A DNA stretch of 64,000 bases from an uncultured Alphaproteobacteria bacterium (GTDB lineage Bacteria; Pseudomonadota; Alphaproteobacteria; Methylaequorales; Methylaequoraceae): contig CACBBU010000007.1 in the NCBI GenBank assembly GCA_902537615.1, positions 1 to 64,000 of the forward strand. Direction: 5' to 3'. Positions 35,943-38,276 of the stretch are shown one piece after another. Every line of letters starts with the position of its first letter. Positions within the stretch are counted from its first letter, which is position 1. The notes under the pieces were generated by a model, which saw nothing but the letters and a program-made list of their open reading frames with translations, did not search any database and was not told where the DNA came from. The translations under genes and the position numbers were made by a program.

Positions 35943-36035
35943 TATTAACGTAATATGAATATCACACTCAGATTTGATTAAGATAATTCTGATACTTTGG
36001 GGACAATTATATTAATTTTTATTAAGGAGTAAATA

Positions 36036-36113
36036 ATGGCTTGGACAAAACCAATGATTTCTGAAATCTCTGTTGGTCTTGAAATCAACTCTTATGCTTG
36101 CGCTGAGAAGTAG
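36036..36113 (+). CDS. pqqA: Coenzyme PQQ precursor peptide PqqA (25 aa, absent from ORF track)
   Basis: Own translation MAWTKPMISEISVGLEINSYACAEK: WTKP start, E-x3-Y (EINSY), good RBS AAGGAG; followed by hairpin + T run. Confidence 0.88.
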   Translation: MAWTKPMISEISVGLEINSYACAEK

Positions 36114-36141: not shown

Positions 36142-36175
36142 AAAAGCCCAGCTAATTGGTTGGGCTTTTTTTTTT
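36142..36175 (+). terminator. Rho-independent terminator of pqqA
   Basis: AAAAGCCCA-gctaattgg-TTGGGCTTTTTTTTTT. Confidence 0.88.
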
Positions 36176-36403: not shown

Positions 36404-36772
36404 ATGTATGAATTTTTAGCCAAGACAGTATTAATAACTCATCTCCTCTTTATTTTTTTTGTTGTTGTTGGGGCATTTTCTTACTTCATAAACCCTAAAT
36501 TTCTCTATTTACATTTACCAGCAGTTGCTTGGGGTGTTTATATTCAATTTACAAATTCAATCTGTCCTTTAACGTATGTTGAAAATTGGTTATTAGTTAA
36601 AGATAATGCAACCTTCTATGATGGTGGTTTTATTGAAAATTATATTATGAAAGTCGTTTATCCCTCCGGTATTAGCACCAACATTCAAACCATTCTTGGT
36701 TCAATATTATTAATAATAAACCTGAGTATTTATTTTTTTATTTTTAATTTAAAAATTCTGAAAAAAAAATAG
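36404..36772 (+). CDS. DUF2784 family membrane protein
   Basis: HLLFIFFVVVGAF...HLPAVAWGVYIQFTNSICPLTYVENWL. Confidence 0.82.
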   Translation: MYEFLAKTVLITHLLFIFFVVVGAFSYFINPKFLYLHLPAVAWGVYIQFTNSICPLTYVENWLLVKDNATFYDGGFIENYIMKVVYPSGISTNIQTILGSILLIINLSIYFFIFNLKILKKK

Positions 36773-37288
36773 TTAAATTTTATATGAAATCATTACCGCT
36801 GTTTTTGAACCCATCTCTACAATATTGCCCCAAACTTTTAACAAAAAACTTAATTTACCAAACCTTTGTACTGATTCTTGCTTATGAGAGATTTCGTCAT
36901 TTTTAAGTTTTTCAAGTAATTTTATAAGTTCTTCCTGTTTGCTTTTTTTTCTTAACTTAATTATTTGTTCTTCGTAATGTTTTTCTACAAAACTTTCTAC
37001 AAAATATATAGTAGCGTAAATAAGTTTTTTTCCTGCTAAAGCTGGTATTAACCCAGTTAAAAAACCAAGAAATTTCCATAAAAATAAGAGTTTACTTCTT
37101 TCATCATTGGGTAATATTTGTTCTATTAGTTCTAGATGTTTTTTTTCGGTTTTAAGATGGCTTTGAGCGAACTTTATGATTTCCTTGTTTTTTGAAACGA
37201 ATAAAATTCCTTTGTAAATGTTAACTGCACCTGTTTCACCAGCATGATCTGTTCTTAAATCTGGTATGATAAAATGTGGTATATTCAT
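36773..37288 (-). CDS. coq7: COQ7-type demethoxyubiquinone hydroxylase
   Basis: RTDHAGETGAVNIYKGI; diiron E/ExxH motifs. Confidence 0.92.
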   Translation of the reverse strand: MNIPHFIIPDLRTDHAGETGAVNIYKGILFVSKNKEIIKFAQSHLKTEKKHLELIEQILPNDERSKLLFLWKFLGFLTGLIPALAGKKLIYATIYFVESFVEKHYEEQIIKLRKKSKQEELIKLLEKLKNDEISHKQESVQRFGKLSFLLKVWGNIVEMGSKTAVMISYKI

Positions 37289-37399
37289 AATGTAACTAAT
37301 TGTAACAGTTAGGCCTATTTCATGAAAAAAGGTTTATGTATTGTAATTAAGAAAATTAGTTAAAATTACAAGACAATTTTGTTAATAAAGCACATCCAA

Positions 37400-37468
37400 G
37401 CTTTGAAAAAAAAGATGATTTTTGAAATTCATGTTGTGCTTGAAATCAATCCCGTCGCTAATATCTAG
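37400..37468 (+). pseudogene. Degenerate pqqA-like second copy
   Basis: GCTTTGAAAAAAAAGATGATTTTTGAAATTCATGTTGTGCTTGAAATCAATCCCGTC... aligns ungapped to pqqA (about 39/51 nt from codon 2); peptide ALKKKMIFEIHVVLEINPVANI vs AWTKPMISEISVGLEINSYACAEK. Confidence 0.7.
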
Positions 37469-37568
37469 TTTAACTTAAAATATTTCAATTCTAATTTAAA
37501 TTTGAGTAAAAAAGATATTTTTTTTTAAGTAGCTTTCTTAAATTCAAAGTTGAACTATTATTATTTTA

Positions 37569-38276
37569 ATGATCAAAATAAGTAGATACGCAGTAGAAAA
37601 GTTTCTGAATTGCAAAAGATGTTTTTTTCTTGAGCAAAAACATAGAGTTAGATTACAAAGCTTACCTTTTACTTTAAATAATGCAGTAGATAATCTTTGT
37701 AAAAATGAATTTGATTATTACAGAAGAAAACAGCTACCTCACCCAATTTTTATAGAAAACAACATTGATGCAGTACCTTTTAATCATCCTAACATAGATG
37801 AGTGGAGAAATAATAGGAAAGGTATTAATTACAATGACTCAATTAATGAGTTTCATTTTTATGGTGCTGTTGATGATGTATGGGTCAAACCCAACGGTGA
37901 ACTAATAATATCCGATGTAAAGGCAACAGCAAAAAAAGAATTTAATTGGTTTGAAACTTATAAGTATGAATATGCTAAGGGATATAAACGTCAAATTGAA
38001 ATGTATCAATGGTTGTTCAGAAAAAATGGTTTTAAGGTCTCAAATGATGGATTTTTAGTTTACTTTAATGGCTTGAGAAATGAGCCAATGTTTAATAAAC
38101 AATTAAATTTTGAGCTTCATCTTATAAAACTGGAATGCAGTGATGAATGGGTTGAAGAAACAATAATTAGAGCAATAAAATTGCTGAAGACTGATGATCT
38201 ACCGTCTGCATCAAAAAGTTGTAGTACATGTTCATATTTAAAAGATCGTTGGAAGGTTAAACAAAAAATTGATTGA
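37569..38276 (+). CDS. PD-(D/E)XK nuclease superfamily protein, Cas4-like with Cys cluster
   Basis: GAVDDVW...LIISDVKATAKKE...QIEMYQWL; N-terminal C-x2-C and C-terminal CSTC. Confidence 0.75.
   Translation: MIKISRYAVEKFLNCKRCFFLEQKHRVRLQSLPFTLNNAVDNLCKNEFDYYRRKQLPHPIFIENNIDAVPFNHPNIDEWRNNRKGINYNDSINEFHFYGAVDDVWVKPNGELIISDVKATAKKEFNWFETYKYEYAKGYKRQIEMYQWLFRKNGFKVSNDGFLVYFNGLRNEPMFNKQLNFELHLIKLECSDEWVEETIIRAIKLLKTDDLPSASKSCSTCSYLKDRWKVKQKID

Follow-up and report, generated by a model that had tools for sequence, protein, structure and literature searches.

A probable relic of an additional pqqA gene of the orphan type in a HIMB59-clade marine alphaproteobacterium

We have analysed here a window of 64,000 nucleotides from a member of the HIMB59 clade, a group of marine Alphaproteobacteria with small genomes; the window is contig C7 in an assembly of 1.23 Mb that is 78.7% complete. 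The window carries an intact pqqA that no other pqq gene adjoins (the orphan copy); it has an AAGGAG ribosome site, encodes the E-x3-Y motif as EINSY, passes the cut-offs of both PqqA family models (Table 1), and is conserved at the same place in the congeners G001 and G002. Downstream of it lie a DUF2784 gene, a COQ7-like gene on the opposite strand, and a nuclease-like gene, with the sequence considered here, the relic, between the last two. The COQ7-like protein, at 44 bits relative to an NCBIfam cut-off of 180, is a second and diverged paralogue; about half of the searched family genomes, or more, retain it, and this genome has another COQ7-like gene at G000:C1:44031.

Table 1. Features of the orphan pqqA, the relic and their neighbours, in window coordinates
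Feature	Position	Strand	Remarks
Orphan pqqA leader	35953..36033	+	TCAG...TTAAG...TATA-type element, shared by the family's pqqA leaders, orphan and operon alike
Intact orphan pqqA	36036..36113	+	Peptide MAWTKPMISEISVGLEINSYACAEK; TIGR02107 36.7 bits (cut-off 20), PF08042 30.8 bits (cut-off 21.1)
Orphan pqqA intrinsic terminator	36142..36169	+	Strong; no equivalent hairpin 3' of the relic
DUF2784 gene	36404..36772	+	PF10861; between intact copy and relic
COQ7-like gene	36773..37288	-	Diverged paralogue, another on contig C1; between intact copy and relic
Segment absent from the coq7/PDDEXK intergenic region of both congeners	37374..37548	.	About 175 nt, boundaries approximate; holds the relic
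Relic reading frame in pqqA register	37397..37468	+	QALKKKMIFEIHVVLEINPVANI, then a stop, two codons early; CAA at the place of the start codon
Part for which homology to pqqA codons 2-21 can be shown	37400..37459	+	
PD-(D/E)XK nuclease-like gene	37569..38276	+	PF12705; downstream of relic

The genome also has an operon pqqA, on contig C15 upstream of pqqB, pqqC, pqqD and pqqE, which encodes the same peptide as the orphan copy with 93% DNA identity. Near it are a gene for a PQQ-dependent dehydrogenase of the methanol/ethanol family (610 aa) and then a c-type cytochrome-like gene; the dehydrogenase carries a D-Y-D motif, which we take to be typical of XoxF, and we refer to it as XoxF-like. The relic, described in an earlier note as a second copy, is the third pqqA-like sequence, after the operon gene and the orphan copy, and the parent supposed for it at 36036 is the orphan copy itself and not the operon pqqA.

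The relic lies on the same strand as the intact copy, 1361 nt from it, and its frame is stop-free for 23 codons in the pqqA register. On recount the frame, the peptide, the ATG at 37415 and the replacement of tyrosine by valine are all as the earlier note had them, as are the ungapped identity of 12 of 20 residues with PqqA positions 2–21 and of 39 of 51 nt over codons 2–18. Over codons 2–21 the DNA identity is 43/60 with the window's own copy and 45/60 with the best intact copy. Glu10, Glu16 (the cross-link partner) and the EI.V.LEIN core are retained, so that the E-x3-Y pair is broken with its Glu kept and Tyr20 changed to Val. Also changed are Trp3, Pro6, Ser12, Gly14, Ser19, Cys22 and Ala23, and a stop stands at codon 24. 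The start codon, the tail, the ribosome site (no AAGGAG) and the terminator hairpin are lost; no ribosome site was seen before ATG 37415 or before the ancestral start place, and a hairpin terminator is absent 3' of the relic.

Five tests of chance agree that the resemblance to pqqA is an outlier. Alignment against shuffled controls, the check that had been proposed, places the similarity beyond chance: the local alignment of relic and pqqA scores 53, where the highest of 3000 dinucleotide shuffles scores 36 and the next-best place in the window 32. In an ungapped scan of 579 kb of family DNA (1.15 million positions) against 53 distinct intact copies, no background position exceeds 37/60, compared with 45/60 for the relic. 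A six-frame BLOSUM62 peptide scan gives the relic 42 and the next of 349,308 stop-free 20-mers 31, and nhmmer in the same 579 kb returns the relic with an E-value of 0.0015, followed by 0.84 for the next match and 7.7 for the reversed control. With a sequence-only covariance model the relic scores 23.1 bits, with an E-value of 9.4e-5 in its own genome, and is the best match in 32 whole family genomes besides recognisable copies and copies cut by contig ends. The two next-best weak matches, at 19.2 and 17.6 bits, are inside unrelated coding genes and thus mark the noise level of the profile search.

The similarity was also held to run past the open reading frame on both sides, and this part of the claim does not survive. 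Upstream, GACAATTTTGTTAAT matches the pqqA leader with its register shifted by 9 nt, and as far as about 37373 the DNA is native to the intergenic region and also present in G001 and G002, both without a relic; homology of the flanks is not demonstrable. The downstream match, TATTTCAAT, is not significant alone and was rejected as a 3' UTR similarity, since about 5% of shuffles reach the same level. We also considered homology of the whole cassette, in that the 87 nt upstream of the relic align with the orphan leader L218 at a score of 46, equalled by 1 of 4000 background chunks; this reading was dropped because positions 37333–37373 are part of the native DNA shared with the two congeners. 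A 25/26-nt match of 37367–37392 to a small ORF in G002:C5 was taken as chance because the orthologue in this genome, L276, does not match. What can be demonstrated from the alignments is pqqA homology over about 60 nt only. That extent, the AT-rich composition and the failed flank matches speak for a chance resemblance of intergenic DNA to pqqA, although the gap between the relic and everything else in the scans, its rank among the 32 genomes, and the presence of a true copy 1.4 kb away on the same strand leave that explanation strongly disfavoured, and we regard it as very improbable.

The earlier note had proposed to look in related genomes for an intact second copy at this place, and would have taken the lack of any pqqA-like sequence there as a refutation. 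Neither G001 nor G002 carries an intact copy or a relic there, so the expected counterpart is missing, whereas the pqqA origin stands, because extra copies in the family sit at many different sites and absence from this one does not refute it. The segment without counterpart in the congeners is close in size to one pqqA unit; with three genomes compared, its absence fits a gain here or a loss in the congeners alike.

The nature of the changes bears on whether the relic is a pseudogene or a diverged peptide that still works. Across 54 distinct intact family copies, Trp3, Pro6, Glu10–Val13 and Leu15–Lys25 are invariant, and the relic breaks many of these. Its 12 changes in codons 2–18 fall 2/6/4 at codon positions 1/2/3, compared with 18/29/215 (82% third) in the intact copies (p = 2.7e-4); the sample is small, and these 12 changes give no sign that purifying selection has acted on the frame. 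We read the relic as a pseudogene because the start, ribosome site, terminator and invariant residues are lost and the changes are not biased to the third position. The earlier note's description of the sequence as pqqA-derived, eroded and deprived of its cross-link tyrosine is supported.

The earlier note had also offered a 17-aa functional peptide starting at ATG 37415, whose product, if translated, is MIFEIHVVLEINPVANI. Such a peptide might, for instance, be a decoy that cannot be cross-linked and that adjusts PQQ synthesis by binding to PqqD or PqqE. The frame is indeed open to its stop, both glutamates and the core are kept, and the residues of PqqA upstream of the cross-link are expected to contact PqqD. 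We nevertheless consider a working peptide a slim prospect, given the missing ribosome site, the lack of a start at the ancestral place, the predominance of changes outside the third position, the absence of the segment from both congeners, and the failure of the peptide to match the Pfam or NCBIfam PqqA models. In PQQ synthesis PqqE links the Glu to the Tyr of PqqA, and since the relic is without Tyr20, its product could not be made into PQQ even if it were translated.

The pseudogene reading sits within a wider pattern of pqqA copy number. Matches to pqqA were found in 31 of 32 family genomes, with 1–5 in each; the genes are almost identical, and nearly every HIMB59-family genome keeps between one and five of them. 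The extra copies adjoin many different genes, and often two lie within a few kilobases. In G001 and G016 several of the copies are at the ends of contigs. Two others are decaying: in G013:C14 (L254) the Tyr codon is now a stop, with further changes at Trp3, Pro6, Cys22 and Glu24, and in G010:C19 (L240) the Trp3 codon is now a stop. Like the relic these are extra copies with key residues lost, but they are much younger, still with an intact start codon and a largely intact sequence. Orphan leaders have an ATGAATA / TCAG / TTAAG / TATA-like layout, and because a profile of them also finds the operon leaders, the leader sequences suggest that orphan and operon pqqA genes are under common control, possibly through a shared regulator site. 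As a separate observation, L242 (G022:C19:294-542) has two facing pqqA copies about 70 nt apart, each adjoining the same operon-type neighbours, which could be an assembly join.

We propose, with considerable confidence, that 37400–37459 is what is left of an additional pqqA of the orphan type, which came to be situated between the coq7-like and PDDEXK genes and would have decayed afterwards. PqqA is consumed at one peptide per PQQ, and the intact orphan copies of the family, with their own leaders and terminators, would supply more precursor to the enzymes of pqqBCDE, whose genes are elsewhere; the PQQ would in turn serve the XoxF-like methanol dehydrogenase, as judged from known pathway biochemistry. 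The relic, with its start, ribosome site, terminator and cross-link Tyr gone, would contribute no PQQ and probably no peptide, and is real but probably inert.

Copies of pqqA are also found in viral DNA. A degenerate pattern for the PqqA core identified 107 IMG/VR viral contig stretches (L107–L213), almost all of which encode a complete PqqA of 25–26 residues with a EISVGLEINSYACAE core, a core largely demanded by the search pattern itself. They form five groups by shared DNA, at least three of which have clear phage hallmark genes: one has a T4-type single-strand DNA-binding protein, PhoH and a tape measure protein, another DNA polymerase and ribonucleotide reductase, and another terminase, portal and capsid proteins. 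The remaining two groups are less certain as phage. Viral and host genes are alike at up to 66/69 nt, hinting that the carriers may be phages of the HIMB59 clade. In three viral contigs (L119, L130 and L181) pqqA adjoins NifU-like and Fe-S assembly genes. No model in PHROGs and no entry in an annotated phage collection matched PqqA. A phage pqqA has been reported from Lake Baikal (PMC7678222), and in the literature searched, from whose coverage many journals fall outside, we found no earlier report of these marine viral groups. That the relic descends from a phage-delivered pqqA of the same core and not from a host copy is the least probable of the alternatives, since it is nearer to host copies (38/51 nt) than to any viral copy (33/51 nt) and no phage genes were recognised beside it.

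The relic is a genuine decayed pqqA, to date seen in no genome but this one; its details are new and its kind is ordinary. Taken alone, one pseudogene for a peptide of 25 residues is of little consequence; it documents turnover of pqqA in a streamlined lineage, where extras are usually purged. The presence of 1–5 near-identical host copies together with viral copies would fit a supply of PqqA that limits PQQ for methanol oxidation. More speculatively, and at rather long odds, pqqA of the HIMB59 family might be a self-contained cassette of leader, 25-codon gene and terminator that has been repeatedly copied to intergenic sites, lost, and shared with marine phages, with the relic as its oldest recognisable corpse.

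Measured against PqqA as defined by TIGR02107 and PF08042, the relic aligns without a gap to residues 2–21 and keeps Glu16 and the EI.V.LEIN core, yet it is without the start, Trp3, Pro6, Gly14, Ser19, Tyr20, Cys22 and the tail, and it matches neither PF08042 nor TIGR02107. Multiple pqqA genes are familiar from methylotrophs: the PQQ-producing strain FJNU-6 has five, of which two belong to operons and three stand alone, with unequal expression (PMC9851590), and Methylovorus sp. MP688 is cited in the same paper as having multiple pqqA genes (Ge et al. 2015, cited in PMC9851590). The arrangement here is similar in that one operon copy is accompanied by stand-alone copies elsewhere, and differs in that the host is a streamlined HIMB59-clade marine bacterium and one copy has decayed. 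Because several pqqA copies per genome are the rule in the family and known from other methylotrophs, the relic fits the ordinary birth and death of a small gene.
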